Shown here in pieces: positions 5,856 to 47,891 of a stretch of DNA of 58,352 bases. The notes beneath the pieces are model-generated. The model saw nothing but the letters and a program-made list of their open reading frames with translations, searched no databases and was not told where the DNA came from. The translations under genes and the position numbers were made by a program. Position 1 is the first letter of the stretch; each line of letters begins with the position of its first letter. Origin of the DNA: Nitrospira sp. (GTDB taxonomy: Bacteria > Nitrospirota > Nitrospiria > Nitrospirales > Nitrospiraceae); NCBI GenBank assembly GCA_005116965.1, contig SWDG01000006.1, positions 84,082 through 142,433 of the forward strand. The letters are read 5' to 3'.

Positions 5856-7134
5856 TCATGTTCGAACGAAGCGAAGCCGTTTTTGGATGAGATGTTTCTG
5901 CTGTGTCAATATTGCCTTGTCGGTTGGAAGATCAAAGAACGAGGTAATCTCTCCAGGATTGACAAACTTGTAACCATGAAAAATATGGAATTCTAGCAAG
6001 GCTTCAACGTAACGCTTGAGCTGGTATAGGAGCTTCGTGATCTCTTCATTCCGTTGATCCATATGAACGGCAGAGTTTCTGTAATCACGTAGGTGGTGCA
6101 ACACTTCTTGATGGAAGGCGCGATCTGACCAAACTGAGATGGCCCGAGCAACGGTCACTTTATGGGAGTCTTTAGTTGTTGTTCTGGTGAGGTGCTCTAA
6201 TAAGCTCCAAAGCTTGAGGAATGCGGTTTCATGATTTCTTTCGTCCAGGGCAACGGCATACTGCCTAAAGGCTTCCTCCATAAATGTTCTCGAATGCGAT
6301 TTTGACAGTCGCTTTCTGACCTGCCTTTCGAAGCTTCTGAGCGAGTCCCAGTTTCTTCGGAGATCTATCGGTGATACCGGCTCAATGTAAGTCGGATCAT
6401 ACCAGAACGGGTCTGGAAGACGTTTCCCATTCGGATATATGGAGCGAGTGTAAGGGGCCTAACAATATCTTATTGATAGGATCTCGTTTTCCTACGTGGA
6501 GTATGACGTGGCGCTTTCTGTTAAGGGCAAAGTTCCAGATTCCTCTCAGAAGGTCAATGGTATCAAGTGCTACAATTCCAGCCTCTTCCGGGGACCGGCC
6601 CCGCGTCATTATCTGAATATATGAGTATGCCGTAGGTAATTCTCGATTAATAAACTCACGGCCCAGTTGGAGAAAAACATCTCTTTGAATCTTAGAGCTG
6701 AGGTGGCGAGAGAAAGTTATGCGGGTATCATTTAAGCCCACACTCTCGCGAGCTGTAGGTGTGTGGAGAGAGATATCACTGGCCAGTAAATACTTCTTGA
6801 TAGGTTATCGCATGTACGCTTTTTCTAGTTTCGAGATTTCTTGCAGTAGTGCTGACTTCGTAAGTGTTTTGGACTTAGCTACAAGGGAGATCCCCTTGTG
6901 AACAAACTGCCTCTTGTAGATATCGGGAAGATGAGAAACGAAGCTGAGGGATGAAAGTAGAACGGTCGCGTAGTCGTCAAACTCAAATCCAGTGAATGAC
7001 ACCTCCCCATTTGCGGACGTAGACTTAATCCTCTCTAAGCCCGTAGTGATTACATCTGGGTTATAACCACTTTCCAATCCGCACACATATAGGGCCTTAT
7101 CAGCTAAATTCGTAGGTCGCTGTGCGCATTCAGT
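5856..7134 (-). pseudogene. Decayed HEPN-domain protein gene
   Basis: Three minus-strand fragments read as one protein of about 425 residues. The first (from about 7134, with no good start codon) runs to an in-frame TAA at 6805-6807. The same frame resumes at once (PIKKYLLASDISLHTPTARE) and continues to about 6405, where a one-base shift leads into DPFWYDPTYIEPVSPIDLRR. The last frame runs to the stop. The C-terminal part contains LWSLLEHLT and RDYRNSAVH, an R-x4-H motif typical of HEPN ribonuclease-fold domains such as ApeA-like proteins. The missing start, stop and frameshift together indicate a pseudogene. It follows directly after the stop of the acyl-CoA synthetase gene. Confidence 0.7.
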
Positions 7135-41960: not shown

Positions 41961-43181
41961 ATGGGATTTGTGGTTCGTACTTGCCTGAATCAGCGCACGC
42001 TCAGATTGTTTGCTCAAGTCATGTATGGCCTAGCGGTTTGCGTGATCCTAGCGGCGGGCATCGCCTGCGAAAACAAACCGGCAGAGACCTCCACAGTCAA
42101 ACAGGACTTGCCTTTGGCGCAAACGGGGTTGTTGCACCTCACGCCGGAAGAGTTGTCGCGGATGCAGCTGGAACTGGTATCGGTAGCGCAGGGGCAGCTT
42201 CTTTCACATCGTGAGTTTCCCGCGACTGTCCAGGCAAACCAAAATGAATTGGCTGAGGTCACCACTCTGATCCGTGGCCGTGTTGTGAAAGTCCATGTCG
42301 ATGTCGGGCAGGACGTGAAAAAAGGCGCTCTTTTGGCGATGCTCCACAGCGTGGACCTGGGCGTGGCGGAGGGAGACTATCTCAAGGCTGGGGCAAGGCT
42401 CCATGAAGCGGAGCTAGCGCATCTCCGTGCCAAGGACCTGTACGAAAACAAGGCCATCAGTCTCGCTGAACTGCAACGACGCGAGGCTGCCATGAAGACG
42501 GCGCGCGCCGAAGTCCGTGAGGCACAAAACCGTCTCGAATTGCTTGGTGTGCCGACGGATGAGATCAACAGACTTGATCGGGAATTGACGATTAAGGCCG
42601 ACATGCCCCTACGCGCGCCGTTCGATGGGCGAGTGATCACACGCAATATCACACGGGGAGAAGTCGTCGAAACAGAACAGAAGCTTTTTACTGTGGCCAA
42701 TCTCACGGATGTGTGGGTGATCGGCAACGTGCCGGAGAAGGACGTGCGATTCATCCGCAAAGACCAGAACGTCACCGTGGTCGTAGCGGCCTATCCCCAT
42801 GCGATCTTCAGCGGGACCATCACCTATGTCGGAGACGTGCTTGATCCCGCAACCCGAACCATGAGCCTCCGGGTCACCGTGCCGAACCCCGATCGACTGT
42901 TGAAGCCGGAAATGTTCGCCATCATCAGCGTGTTGGCAACCCCAAGTCCGGACGTGCTGAGCGTTCCGCTCGCGGCTGTCCAGGATGGGCCTGCCGGTAA
43001 GATGGTATTCGTTCAACGGGAACCCGGCGTTTTCGAGCCACGGCCAATCAAGTTGGGGAATGAAGAGGGAGACGTGATCAGAGTCTTGGATGGGGTGAAG
43101 GCCGGTGAGCAGATTGTGACGAAAGGCTCCTTTGCCCTCAAGTCCGAAATGGAACGGTACAAGATCGAGCCATCGCTATGA
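41961..43181 (+). CDS. RND efflux periplasmic adaptor (membrane fusion protein)
   Basis: About 406 residues from ATG 41961. The choice gives a signal with lipobox-like Cys (LAAGIACEN) 35 residues in; ATG 41856 is in frame and would make the leader too long. Adaptor parts follow: LIRGRVVKVHVDVGQDVKKG (lipoyl domain), a helical hairpin LAELQRREAAMKTARAEVRE, RAPFDGRVITRNITRGEVVE and the beta-barrel VGDVLDPATRTMSLRVTVPN. It is of the CusB/CzcB heavy-metal type. It overlaps the pump gene by four bases; no outer-membrane channel gene is adjacent. Confidence 0.9.
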   Translation: MGFVVRTCLNQRTLRLFAQVMYGLAVCVILAAGIACENKPAETSTVKQDLPLAQTGLLHLTPEELSRMQLELVSVAQGQLLSHREFPATVQANQNELAEVTTLIRGRVVKVHVDVGQDVKKGALLAMLHSVDLGVAEGDYLKAGARLHEAELAHLRAKDLYENKAISLAELQRREAAMKTARAEVREAQNRLELLGVPTDEINRLDRELTIKADMPLRAPFDGRVITRNITRGEVVETEQKLFTVANLTDVWVIGNVPEKDVRFIRKDQNVTVVVAAYPHAIFSGTITYVGDVLDPATRTMSLRVTVPNPDRLLKPEMFAIISVLATPSPDVLSVPLAAVQDGPAGKMVFVQREPGVFEPRPIKLGNEEGDVIRVLDGVKAGEQIVTKGSFALKSEMERYKIEPSL

Positions 43182-46100
43182 TCGTCTCGCTTCTGGAATT
43201 CTCACTGCGGCAGCGAATACTGGTCCTGGGTCTAGCCTGTCTGCTGTCCGTCGTCGGTGTAATTGCCTTTGAGTCGATTCCAATTGATGCCTACCCCGAT
43301 GTGACCAACATCCAAGTACAGATACTGACCGAGGCTGCGGGGCTCTCGCCAGTCGAAGTTGAACGGTTCATCACCTATCCGCTGGAACTTCAGATGACCG
43401 GGTTGCCTGGATTAGCGGAGATCCGGTCACTTTCCAAATTTGCGCTATCCCAAATCACGGTCGTGTTCAACGACGACGTGGATATGTACTTTGCCCGCCA
43501 GTTGGTCCTCGAACGGATCATGGCGGCGAAGGATCGGTTACCGGAGGGGCTTGAACCAGTCATGGCTCCCGTCACAACGGGGCTGGGCGAGGTCTATCAC
43601 TACTATCTCGAAGGGTCTCATGCGACCGCGACTGACGCGAAGACGGTCGAGGCCGAGTTGACGGATCAGCGCACCATGCAGGAGTGGGTCCTGCGTCCCC
43701 TGCTCAAGGGCGTGCCGGGAGTGATTGATGTAAACGGCATGGGTGGATTTGTGAAGCAGTATCAGGTCTTGGTCGATCCGGCCAAGCTGCGCAAGTTCGA
43801 CCTGACGCTGCAACAAATCTACGAGGCGGTGGTGAAGAACAACGCCAATGTCGGCGGCAACGTGCTGGAGCGGCACGCTGAACGCTCGATTGTTCGAGGG
43901 CTTGGGCTGATCAGGACCGTGGGTGATATCGAATCCATCATTGTGAAAGAGGTCAGTGGCACGCCAGTGTTCGTCCGGGATGTCGCTGACGTCGGCATCG
44001 GCCACGCCGTTCGACATGGCGCGGTGGTCCTCAATGGGGAGCGGGAAGTCGTGATAGGAACAGTGCTCATGATTCGCGGAGGCAATGCCCGTCAAGTAGT
44101 CGAGGCGGTTAAGGCTAAGGTGGAGGATCTGCAGCAGAGCAATGTCCTCCCTGCAGGCACCAAACTGATCCCTTTCTACGATCGCATTGAGCTGGTGAAT
44201 GCCGCCATTCACACGGTACGGGATGCATTGATCGAAGGAATTGTGCTGGTGGTCTTCATCTTCTTTTTCTTTCTGGGCCATGTCCGTAGCGCCATCATTG
44301 TCACGGTGACGTTGATCGTCACTCCGCTCGTGACCTTTATCGTGATGGAACGGTTTGGGCTCTCGGCCAACTTGATGACACTGGGTGGGCTGGCGATCGC
44401 CATCGGTGAGATCGCCGACGGGTCCCTGGTTGTCGTGGAAAACGCCTATCGGCATCTCGCCCACCATAGCGGCGCATCGCAGGAAAGCAGGTCCAGTGTC
44501 ATTCTCCATGCCACGAAGGAAGTCGGTCGACCAATCCTGTTCGGTATTCTGATCATCAGCGTCGTCTTCCTCCCGCTCATGACGCTGCAAGGAATGGAAG
44601 GCAAGATGTTCGCGCCGCTGGCCTATACGCTGGTGATTGCACTCTTGGCCTCGGTCGTGGTGACGCTGACTCTGTCGCCAGTGCTTGTGTCTCTCCTCTT
44701 GCGGGGGGACCATCTTGAAGAGACGCGCGTGACGCTCTGGATGAAACAAGGCTATCTGCCGGTGTTGCAATGGACGCTCCGCCACCGCAGCCTCATCCTG
44801 ACAAGTTCAACAGTGATCGTGTTGTGCAGCCTTGCCCTCGTTCCATTCGTGGGACGGGAATTCATTCCACTCCTTGAGGAAGGGGCCCTGACACCTCAAG
44901 TGGTGAAGTTGCCGAGCGTGTCGCTTTCTGAGTCTATCGAGCTAGAGAAGCAGGCTCAGAAGGCCATGTTGGAATTTCCCGAAGTGAAGATGGCGGTGAG
45001 CAGGATTGGCCGAGCGGAAATTCCCTACCATCCGGAAGATCTCTACGAGAGTGATCCGATTGTCTCACTGCACGACCGGAGTACCTGGAAGACGGCGACA
45101 ACTCAGTCGGGATTGACCGACGCCATTCGGAACAAACTTGCGGAGATTCCCGGCATCTCCGTGCTCATGAGCCAACCGATCCAGGAACGAGTGGATGAGT
45201 TGATCTCCGGCATCAGGACCGAATGCGCCATCAAGCTGTTCGGAGACGATCTCGATGTGCTCCGCGACAAGGCGCAGGAGATTGCGGCCCTGGTACAACA
45301 AATCAACGGCGTCAAAGATATCAAGGTCGAACAGGTCGCTGGACAGCCCTACCTCATTATCGACATCGATCGGCAGAAGATTGCTCGTTTCGGCATCAAC
45401 GTGGCCGATGTGCAAGAGATCATCACCACCGCGATCGGAGGCAAGCCGGCGACGCAGGTCTATGAAGGCGAGCGCCGGTTTCAGCTCACCCTGAGATTTC
45501 CAGAACCATACCGGAACAGCGTTGCCGCCATCGGAGAAATCCGCGTGAAGTCTCCTTCCGGTGCGCTCATTCCCCTGAGTGACCTCGCCAAGATTGAAAT
45601 GCGTGAAGGCCCGGCTCGTATCAGTCGAGAGCATGTGAAGCGTCGCATCTACATCGGTTTCAATGTCGTGGGTCGGGACATCGGCGGTGTGGTGGATGAG
45701 GGGCGCGCGAAGATCGCAGCACAGCTCCGTTTACCGGACGGGTATACCATCGTGTGGGGCGGGGCGTTCGAAAATATGGAGCGGGCCAACGCGCGGTTGA
45801 TGATCGTGGTCCCGATTACACTGGGCCTCGTGTTCTTTCTTCTGTTCTGGGCCTTCCATTCTCTGCGATACGCGACCATGATCATTATCAACCTGCCGTT
45901 CGCGTTGATTGGCGGCGTCGTGTCGCTGTGGCTGAGCGGACAGTATCTGAGCGTGCCGGCTTCCATCGGCTTCATCGAGTTATTCGGATTGGCTGTGGGG
46001 AACGGAATCGTGCTGGTCTCCTACATCAACCAACTGCGCCATGAAGGACAACAGATCGACGAAGCGATTCTGGCCGGCTGCAGTCTCCGTCTCCGCCCTG

Positions 46101-46309
46101 TCGTGATGACCATGATGACCACGTTGCTTGGACTTCTGCCGCTGGCACTGGCGCAAGGAATTGGGGCGGAGGTTCAGCGACCGCTCGCCACTGTCGTGAT
46201 CGGCGGACTCTTCACGTCGACGGCGCTGACGCTGGTTGTACTGCCCGCGCTCTATAGTCTGTTCGCTGGGCAAGAGGTGAGGAAAGAGGAGGCGCCGGAA
46301 TGGGTGTGA
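43178..46309 (+). CDS. RND heavy-metal efflux pump (CusA/CzcA family)
   Basis: 1043 residues of the HME-RND class: N-terminal RQRILVLGLACLLSVVGVIA, IDAYPDVTNIQVQILTEAAG, then PLELQMTGLPGLAEIRS. The TM4 proton-relay region is LAIAIGEIADGSLVVVENAY, carrying the acidic residue expected for the HME class but with GS in place of the usual GA. Metal specificity cannot be read reliably. The pump pairs with the adaptor encoded upstream. Confidence 0.94.
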   Translation: MIVSLLEFSLRQRILVLGLACLLSVVGVIAFESIPIDAYPDVTNIQVQILTEAAGLSPVEVERFITYPLELQMTGLPGLAEIRSLSKFALSQITVVFNDDVDMYFARQLVLERIMAAKDRLPEGLEPVMAPVTTGLGEVYHYYLEGSHATATDAKTVEAELTDQRTMQEWVLRPLLKGVPGVIDVNGMGGFVKQYQVLVDPAKLRKFDLTLQQIYEAVVKNNANVGGNVLERHAERSIVRGLGLIRTVGDIESIIVKEVSGTPVFVRDVADVGIGHAVRHGAVVLNGEREVVIGTVLMIRGGNARQVVEAVKAKVEDLQQSNVLPAGTKLIPFYDRIELVNAAIHTVRDALIEGIVLVVFIFFFFLGHVRSAIIVTVTLIVTPLVTFIVMERFGLSANLMTLGGLAIAIGEIADGSLVVVENAYRHLAHHSGASQESRSSVILHATKEVGRPILFGILIISVVFLPLMTLQGMEGKMFAPLAYTLVIALLASVVVTLTLSPVLVSLLLRGDHLEETRVTLWMKQGYLPVLQWTLRHRSLILTSSTVIVLCSLALVPFVGREFIPLLEEGALTPQVVKLPSVSLSESIELEKQAQKAMLEFPEVKMAVSRIGRAEIPYHPEDLYESDPIVSLHDRSTWKTATTQSGLTDAIRNKLAEIPGISVLMSQPIQERVDELISGIRTECAIKLFGDDLDVLRDKAQEIAALVQQINGVKDIKVEQVAGQPYLIIDIDRQKIARFGINVADVQEIITTAIGGKPATQVYEGERRFQLTLRFPEPYRNSVAAIGEIRVKSPSGALIPLSDLAKIEMREGPARISREHVKRRIYIGFNVVGRDIGGVVDEGRAKIAAQLRLPDGYTIVWGGAFENMERANARLMIVVPITLGLVFFLLFWAFHSLRYATMIIINLPFALIGGVVSLWLSGQYLSVPASIGFIELFGLAVGNGIVLVSYINQLRHEGQQIDEAILAGCSLRLRPVVMTMMTTLLGLLPLALAQGIGAEVQRPLATVVIGGLFTSTALTLVVLPALYSLFAGQEVRKEEAPEWV

Positions 46310-46314
46310 GGGTA

Positions 46315-46413
46315 GGGAGAGCGGTATCGTCAATCCCTTCGCTCGCCGAGGGCGCACGATCGGAATGTGCTCCCTCAATGCGCGCGGTCAGGGATCGACG
46401 ATACCGCTCTCCC
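46315..46413. repeat. About 99-bp nested inverted repeat after the efflux pump
   Basis: The outer 17-base arm GGGAGAGCGGTATCGTC (46315-46331) pairs perfectly with GACGATACCGCTCTCCC (46397-46413). After a mismatch, ATCCCT pairs with AGGGAT. Inside, GAGGGCGCAC pairs with GTGCTCCCTC with one mismatch around a nine-base loop. It begins five bases after the pump stop. It may be a terminator-like structured RNA, a non-coding RNA or a small palindromic repeat element. Confidence 0.75.
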
Positions 46414-46649
46414 AATTGGAATGAAAATGTATGGGGGAAGGGCTAGATAGGGGTCATCAGAGTGCTCGCTCTATGCACGCAGTTGAGGACCAATCGCTCC
46501 GTCTCTTGGAGAAGGAATTATAGTGCAGCCACGAGTAGGCATCAATCTTGTAAGTGTTTCTCGATAAGTTTGCCAGGTTTGTGACCTTTGTGGGCAGGCG
46601 AGGCCGAATCCACAGGGCGATCAGTCAGAATGGGGAGAGGGGGATTCTT

Positions 46650-47891
46650 ATGAGATATGTGTTGGCGGGGATGACCTTGTTGTGCCTCTTCATCGCTCCG
46701 GGGGTTGTTGCACATGCAGCCGGCGGAGAGCAGGAATTTTCCAAAGGGGAGAACCTGTTGAAGAACAAACAGTATGCGGAGGCGCGGGCAGCGTTGGAGG
46801 CCGGTATCCTGAAGGATCCGTCCAATATCCAGGCCCATTTCAATCTGGCCGAGGCTTGCCGAGCCCTAGAATCCTGGGCCTGTGCGGAGCAACATTACGA
46901 GAGCGCATTAGATCTGGATGCCAAGTCCGGGACGAAATCCTATTTACCCAAGACTAAAGCGAAGGTCTGGCGCTTACGGGAGGAAACGACGGCATGGCGG
47001 CTCTTGAACGAGGGGAAGGGCCTGATCGCCAGTGGAAAAACGAAGCAGGCGGAGGAGGCTCTGCATAGCGCCGAGGAGCTTGGTCTCAACAATGAGCAAC
47101 AGACACTCTATCAGCAGCTGCAGGCGAAGCTGCCACGATCACGATCTGCCTCCTCGAAATATCTGGTCTCTGCCGGATCGGTAGGCGGTGCGGGGGTGAC
47201 CGAGACGCTCGATACGCAGATGGTCCTAGTGCCGGCGGGGAAGTTTATGCGGGGAAGTAATCTCGGAGACGATGAGAAACCTGTTCGGCAGATCTATCTC
47301 AATGCCTTCTATATGGACAAATATGAAGTGACGGTCGGGCAGTATGCCAGGTACTTGGAGGCGACTGACATGGAGGAGCCTCCGGACTGGAGCACCATGA
47401 ATCAACCGCAACATCTGCGGCGCCCAGTCGTCAATGTGAGTTGGGAGGATGCGGTCAACTATTGCAAATGGGCCGGCAAGCGCCTGCCGACCGAGGCGGA
47501 GTGGGAAAAAGCGGCGCGGGGAACAGATGGGCGGATCTATCCCTGGGGTAATGAAGCTCCAAGTCGGCTCCATGCCAATTACGGGAGAAAGGAGTGGGAC
47601 GACCACCTCGCCTTAGCCCCGGTCGGATCGTATGAAGCGGGGAAGAGTCCCTACGGGATCTATGACATGGCCGGGAATGCTTGGGAATGGGTGTTCGATT
47701 GGTATGAACTAGATTCGTACAAGAAAAGTCCTGAAAAGAACCCCATCGGGCCGGCAAAAGGCGATGGAAAAGTGTTGCGGGGCGGATCCTGGCTGTACGT
47801 GTCTGAGTTTCTGCGGTCCGCGCACCGGTTCGATGCGCAGCCGACGAATCGGCTTTTTGGATACGGGTTCCGTTGTGCGAAGACGCCATAG
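46650..47891 (+). CDS. TPR plus formylglycine-generating-enzyme-like protein
   Basis: 413 residues from ATG 46650 (GGGAGAGGGGGA just before). A Sec signal (to VVAHA) precedes TPR-like helices (FSKGENLLKNKQYAEARAAL, NIQAHFNLAEACRALESWAC). From about residue 190 a sulfatase-modifying-factor (FGE-sulfatase) domain runs to the end: MVLVPAGKFMRGSNLGDDEK, NVSWEDAVNYCKWAGKRLPT, EAEWEKAARG and NAWEWVFDWYELD. Most proteins with this fold are not sulfatase activators but lectin-like or structural, so function is open. Confidence 0.88.
   Translation: MRYVLAGMTLLCLFIAPGVVAHAAGGEQEFSKGENLLKNKQYAEARAALEAGILKDPSNIQAHFNLAEACRALESWACAEQHYESALDLDAKSGTKSYLPKTKAKVWRLREETTAWRLLNEGKGLIASGKTKQAEEALHSAEELGLNNEQQTLYQQLQAKLPRSRSASSKYLVSAGSVGGAGVTETLDTQMVLVPAGKFMRGSNLGDDEKPVRQIYLNAFYMDKYEVTVGQYARYLEATDMEEPPDWSTMNQPQHLRRPVVNVSWEDAVNYCKWAGKRLPTEAEWEKAARGTDGRIYPWGNEAPSRLHANYGRKEWDDHLALAPVGSYEAGKSPYGIYDMAGNAWEWVFDWYELDSYKKSPEKNPIGPAKGDGKVLRGGSWLYVSEFLRSAHRFDAQPTNRLFGYGFRCAKTP

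Follow-up and report, generated by a model that had tools for sequence, protein, structure and literature searches.

Several kinds of short palindromic DNA lie between bacterial genes. REP sequences and BIMEs (REPINs) are short interspersed palindromes, often paired, mostly intergenic and present in many copies per genome. ERIC and other bacterial MITEs are imperfect palindromes of ~100-130 bp, intergenic and non-autonomous. The attC sites of integrons are located just behind stop codons, in the orientation of the gene; it is their bottom strand that folds, and their sequence is variable while their structure is kept. For most interspersed palindromes it is unclear which strand acts. The hairpin analyzed here is a member of a large and previously undescribed palindromic repeat family, widespread in Nitrospira (a genus of nitrite-oxidising and comammox bacteria) and its relatives, in which hundreds of natural covarying copies, through their strand asymmetry and their exact place behind stop codons, give a reading of the acting strand. 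(In the open-access literature nothing specific to Nitrospira palindromic repeats was found; the sole mention of N. moscoviensis is one row of a RepRanger table.)

The window, a 58,352-nt stretch of Nitrospira sp. DNA (contig SWDG01000006.1, positions 84,082 to 142,433), holds one such hairpin 5 nt 3' of the TGA that ends a gene for an RND efflux pump (Table 1). An earlier note had placed a nested inverted repeat directly after this stop, and its coordinates, 46315-46413, are right. The 17-nt outer arms, GGGAGAGCGGTATCGTC at 46315-46331 and its perfect reverse complement at 46397-46413, extend past one mismatch to 24 nt (46315-46338 and 46390-46413, 96% matched). Counted with their internal-loop bases, the arms flank a 46-nt core, the boundaries of which were set by eye. 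The core consists of two quasi-palindromes, whose conserved mismatches read T.C on the plus strand (A.G on the opposite strand), and the inner stem claimed for it is present, with internal loops and a bulge. The RNA folding proposed as a check yields an MFE of -72.2 kcal/mol, compared with -44.8 ± 4.4 for 200 dinucleotide shuffles (z -6.29), none of which is as low. The next gene downstream is on the same strand and starts ~140-240 nt away, depending on choice of start codon. A decayed copy of the element lies between the main hairpin and that gene; its core hairpin is GTGCTCGCTCTATGCACGCAG, at 46462-46482, and the copy is common to close relatives. The sequence TAGGCATCAATCTTGTAAG at 46536-46554, upstream of the next gene and fairly well kept in relatives, resembles a promoter of the sigma-54 -24/-12 type (GG-N10-GT) and may be one. 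With the 200 C-terminal residues of the pump as query, the relatives retrieved belong to Nitrospira, and many are MAGs; over this segment, the isolate RSF5 shows 100% identity.

Table 1. The hairpin and its surroundings behind the pump gene (positions in the window)
Feature	Position	Strand	Remark
TGA stop of RND efflux pump gene 43178-46309 (1043 aa)	46307-46309	+	
Left arm, fast evolving, complementary to right arm	46315-46339	+	
Conserved core CGCTCGCCGAGGGCGCACGATCGGAATGTGCTCCCTCAATGCGCGC, common to the family	46340-46385	+	
Right arm	46386-46413	+	
Hairpin strand probably under constraint	46315-46413	-	family-wide wobble enrichment and lower folding energy on this strand
Second, shorter, decayed copy: single core hairpin and remnant arms	46442-46510	+	read by eye

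The hairpin as a whole is unique in its own genome, and its inner 46 nt recur there. BLAST matches of the element among 59 relatives are restricted to the genus. Those that were folded share one plan: the conserved core within arms of at least 20 bp, the sequence of the arms being specific to the locus. A covariance model built from the family and scanned over genomes extends its reach (all copy counts from it are lower bounds): the own genome holds at least 14 copies, 55 of the 59 genomes sampled within the genus have copies, and so do all sampled genera of the GTDB family, including g12-g14. Copy numbers in g14 genomes are high, again as lower bounds; one of these (G087) holds at least 16 copies in 400 kb, which extrapolates to ~100 per genome. 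The same scan finds no copies in families f3 and f4, and only a few weak ones in f2. Four of the 59 genomes of the genus (G008, G009, G072 and G073) are without detectable copies. No Rfam covariance model matches the family above its gathering score. (One Rfam match, 5_ureB_sRNA (RF02514), 88.6 bits against a gathering score of 40, is located on the minus strand at 6100-6392 of locus L248 of a same-family genome; this is possibly only an overlap with a conserved coding region.) Viral carriers are not indicated: nine pattern matches in viral contigs cover only 19-23 nt of the inner stem and are most likely due to chance.

In an alignment of 21 elements with 30 pairs, compensatory changes on both sides are seen in 22 of the 30. 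Of the alignment cells 90.3% are paired, against 71.5% after shuffling, and the covariation score is 0.556, against 0.203 for shuffles (0 of 500 reach it) and 0.11-0.17 for slid controls; since the sequences are related, the shuffles give no exact probability, and it is the slid controls that preserve relatedness. Compensatory base changes thus exceed those of the controls, as is expected of a structured nucleic acid under selection. A single genome carries many related copies, scattered between its genes. The earlier note would have given up its reading on finding a single copy with no compensatory changes; the outcome is the opposite on both points.

The copies have also moved or been amplified, in the sense that applies to interspersed repeats generally. 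Non-orthologous copies in one genome are up to ~96% identical over 95-99 nt, and several copies sit in the loop of another copy in the same orientation (the nested junctions, like the core, being set by eye). Nests resembling a Russian doll are found in the same-family genomes G088 and G098 (L248:4289, L245:10427, L238:5509 and L251:3079), with folding energies of -119 to -150 kcal/mol. At the pump locus itself, species with ~93% DNA identity over 5.6 kb may show visibly different arms; the intergenic region is a mosaic between species, and the comparison gave neither a clean empty site nor a target duplication. Other species have no hairpin at the pump stop, or a different and longer hairpin family directly after it (L296, which is N. 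moscoviensis, and L265, L253, L280, L288, L295 and L273). The arms of this longer family are ~30-35 bp or more, its MFE reaches -139 kcal/mol, and its inner sequence, GCGTGCTCC...GGCGCAATGTCGTCGCACGC, has words in common with the present core. An autonomous form of the element, with a gene between its two halves, is not present in the loci scanned.

The mismatches that remain in the arms are not symmetric with respect to strand. Read on the gene strand, 115 copies (2382 columns) have 154 A.C/C.A mismatches, 48 G.T/T.G and 84 of other kinds (p 4e-14), and individual elements lean to the A.C type rather than the G.T type by 66 to 8. The asymmetry holds both near stop codons and elsewhere (70 versus 25 and 82 versus 20, respectively), as well as in both genera, and all four arm mismatches of the close ortholog pair L073/L256 are, by eye, of the A.C type. 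An A.C mismatch on one strand corresponds to a G.U wobble on its complement, which would make the fold of the strand opposite the gene the constrained one; the conserved T.C mismatches of the core, being A.G on the opposite strand, agree with this assignment. (Ascertainment should work against the observed asymmetry, since the priors of the covariance model favor G.U on the strand from which the model was built.) The opposite strand also folds better in 77 of 108 copies as RNA and in 97 of 108 as DNA, and RNAalifold assigns it -37.9 versus -34.9 for the gene strand; folding energies derive in part from the mismatches, and these strand tests are therefore not independent. Arms that evolve fast and always match suggest that it is the opposite strand that has to fold. 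The miniature inverted-repeat element proposed for this hairpin was the closest of the three original candidates, in view of the dispersed core and the nested and ~96% identical copies. For the structured RNA, the structure has been strongly borne out by covariation, but the constrained fold seems to belong to the other strand.

Position is equally particular. Of 119 copies, 58 have their left arm at -10 to +15 nt relative to a same-strand stop codon, and the mirror arrangement, with the right arm at a convergent stop, is found in none of the 119 (a single copy adjoins the start of an opposite gene). Neighboring reading frames were called by a simple codon score for these counts, which is crude, so that some distant or overlapping neighbors are probably miscalls. 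The downstream gene is usually on the same strand, hence convergent termination is not the rule; all three kinds of stop, TAA, TAG and TGA, are used, and so no fixed target word accounts for the position. Replication-strand targeting is rejected as the cause of orientation, the leading-strand bias of the elements differing little from the bias of the genes. Both flanks of 108 copies are purine-rich on the gene strand, with C down to ~5% at several positions within 10-15 nt of the arms. None of the explanations offered below accounts for these flanks.

The best explanation, and on the strength of sequence comparison a probable one, is a new non-autonomous family of interspersed palindromic repeats, of the REP/BIME/MITE kind, in which the fold of the opposite strand is constrained. 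Its unit is ~100-135 nt long, a core of two quasi-palindromes within arms of ~22 bp that drift fast yet keep pairing. Units have been amplified as copies, some of them placed inside the loop of an existing unit, and are retained immediately after stop codons in a single polarity; the strand opposite the upstream gene is the one whose fold is constrained. The existence of the family, its covariation, polarity, position and nesting, and the strand asymmetry are demonstrated by sequence. The opposite-strand hairpin might then be the single-stranded DNA site of a putative trans-acting enzyme, somewhat as in REP, IS200/IS605 and integron attC; this single-stranded-DNA step is tentative, and somewhat more apt to be wrong than right. 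The place behind the stop codon may reflect either targeting or tolerance. Random single-strand insertion does not explain it. Three further points count against the best explanation: a strictly conserved RNA would be expected to show a wobble excess above the 3.2-fold seen, the mosaic pump locus gave no clean empty site, and no enzyme has been found, Y1_Tnp being absent from two genomes that carry many copies (G087 and G086). A bolder version, that these elements are mobile hairpins of single-stranded DNA and form a class of their own, served by a putative enzyme that is neither a RAYT nor an integron integrase, folding on the template strand of transcription, placed with fixed polarity directly behind stops and requiring of their arms nothing beyond complementarity, is doubtful. 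Because the alternatives share the family-level facts, the confidence accorded to each overlaps with that accorded to the main reading.

The alternative that survives best, still an unlikely one, makes the element an antisense boundary: the opposite strand would be transcribed from downstream, and an RNA hairpin would stop or stabilize that transcript exactly where the coding sequence ends, and so protect the gene from antisense transcription. The favored opposite-strand fold and the strict position at the gene edge agree with this, as do flanks that are pyrimidine-rich and G-poor on the opposite strand, and positions 46545-46517 of the minus strand match a sigma-70-like promoter (TTGATG-17-TATAAT; one found, 0.3 expected). 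But the match is weak and its -10 box is, by eye, not kept in L256/L257; the opposite strand offers no U-tract for intrinsic termination, a shield would not require so tight a spacing as 0-10 nt after the stop, and nesting and amplification are left unexplained. (The match, 46517-46545 in plus-strand order, faces the pump gene through the hairpins.) A single-stranded DNA site with a putative enzyme would account for the amplified and nested copies and for the strand specificity, and antisense RNA for the strand and the placement; each leaves part of the evidence unexplained.

The hairpin can also be thought of as a 3' UTR element of the gene strand, which would end or protect the mRNA after the stop codon as a terminator or a REP/BIME-like stabilizer. 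Its very stable fold, 0-10 nt past stops and in gene orientation, is what such an element would present, and REP sequences are generally transcribed together with the flanking genes (PMC12306157). On the gene strand, however, A.C mismatches are three times more common than G.U, the hairpin is followed by purines instead of T, and a search of 46200-46700 turned up no terminator-like site, which leaves this reading rather unlikely. The strong terminator suggested at the outset is not supported: the flank composition of 108 copies discloses no U-run after the hairpin on either strand, and the mismatch asymmetry speaks against a gene-strand RNA fold under constraint.

That the elements are relics of a RAYT/REP system, REPs mobilized by a Y1 transposase since lost in some lineages, is improbable. 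The core does resemble two REP-like quasi-palindromes, and Y1_Tnp genes of ~290-310 aa are present in the own genome; but the two RAYT-like genes examined there have no such hairpins beside them, the copy-rich genomes G087 and G086 contain no Y1_Tnp (RAYT-type) genes, and no GTAG/GTGG foot was noticed by eye at the hairpin base among the elements read. Present membership in a RAYT-REP system is rejected on the first two of these grounds. Least probable of all is a purely mutational origin, in which template switching (quasi-palindrome correction) keeps palindromes perfect without selection and recombination between species spreads them: symmetric arm changes in a short evolutionary time and the mosaic intergenic region at ~93% DNA identity are in its favor, but the conserved 46-nt core with its conserved mismatches, the polarity fixed at stop codons and the amplification to ~96% identity are not, and the C to T bias linked to replication and transcription predicts more G.T on the gene strand, the reverse of the asymmetry observed.

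The preferred reading, an interspersed palindromic repeat family with a constrained opposite-strand fold, places these elements beside several known systems without merging them with any. Intrinsic (Rho-independent) terminators are likewise GC-rich hairpins after genes; the Nitrospira family differs from them in its much longer stem, in lacking a U-tract and in its conserved, dispersed core. With REP/BIME it shares the general properties listed at the outset and, in addition, hairpin cores that contain mismatches; it departs from them in arms that are locus-specific and covarying, in fixed polarity at stops, in opposite-strand wobble and in the absence of RAYT from the copy-rich genome G087; nor was a GTAG/GTGG foot noticed. 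ERIC and other MITEs are comparable in size (~100-130 bp), in being imperfect, non-autonomous palindromes and in lying between genes, but the Nitrospira family has no constant terminal inverted repeat, and no partner IS is found in the loci read; its ends, the arms, are variable and its apex is conserved. The likeness to attC lies in the stop-proximal place in gene orientation, in the bottom-strand fold and in structure kept despite varying sequence. Identity with attC is rejected on two counts: an integron integrase (TIGR02249) scores above cut-off in only one of eight genomes (G075), with none above cut-off in G087, and R''/R' boxes (RYYYAAC / GTTRRRY) are not seen by eye in the window element, which begins GGGAGAGC and finishes GCTCTCCC, or in the other copies read. 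Moreover, the Nitrospira elements are dispersed, unlike the cassette arrays of integrons, and are conserved at the apex instead of the base. This apex-conserved, base-variable architecture is the reverse of that of known attC sites and MITEs.
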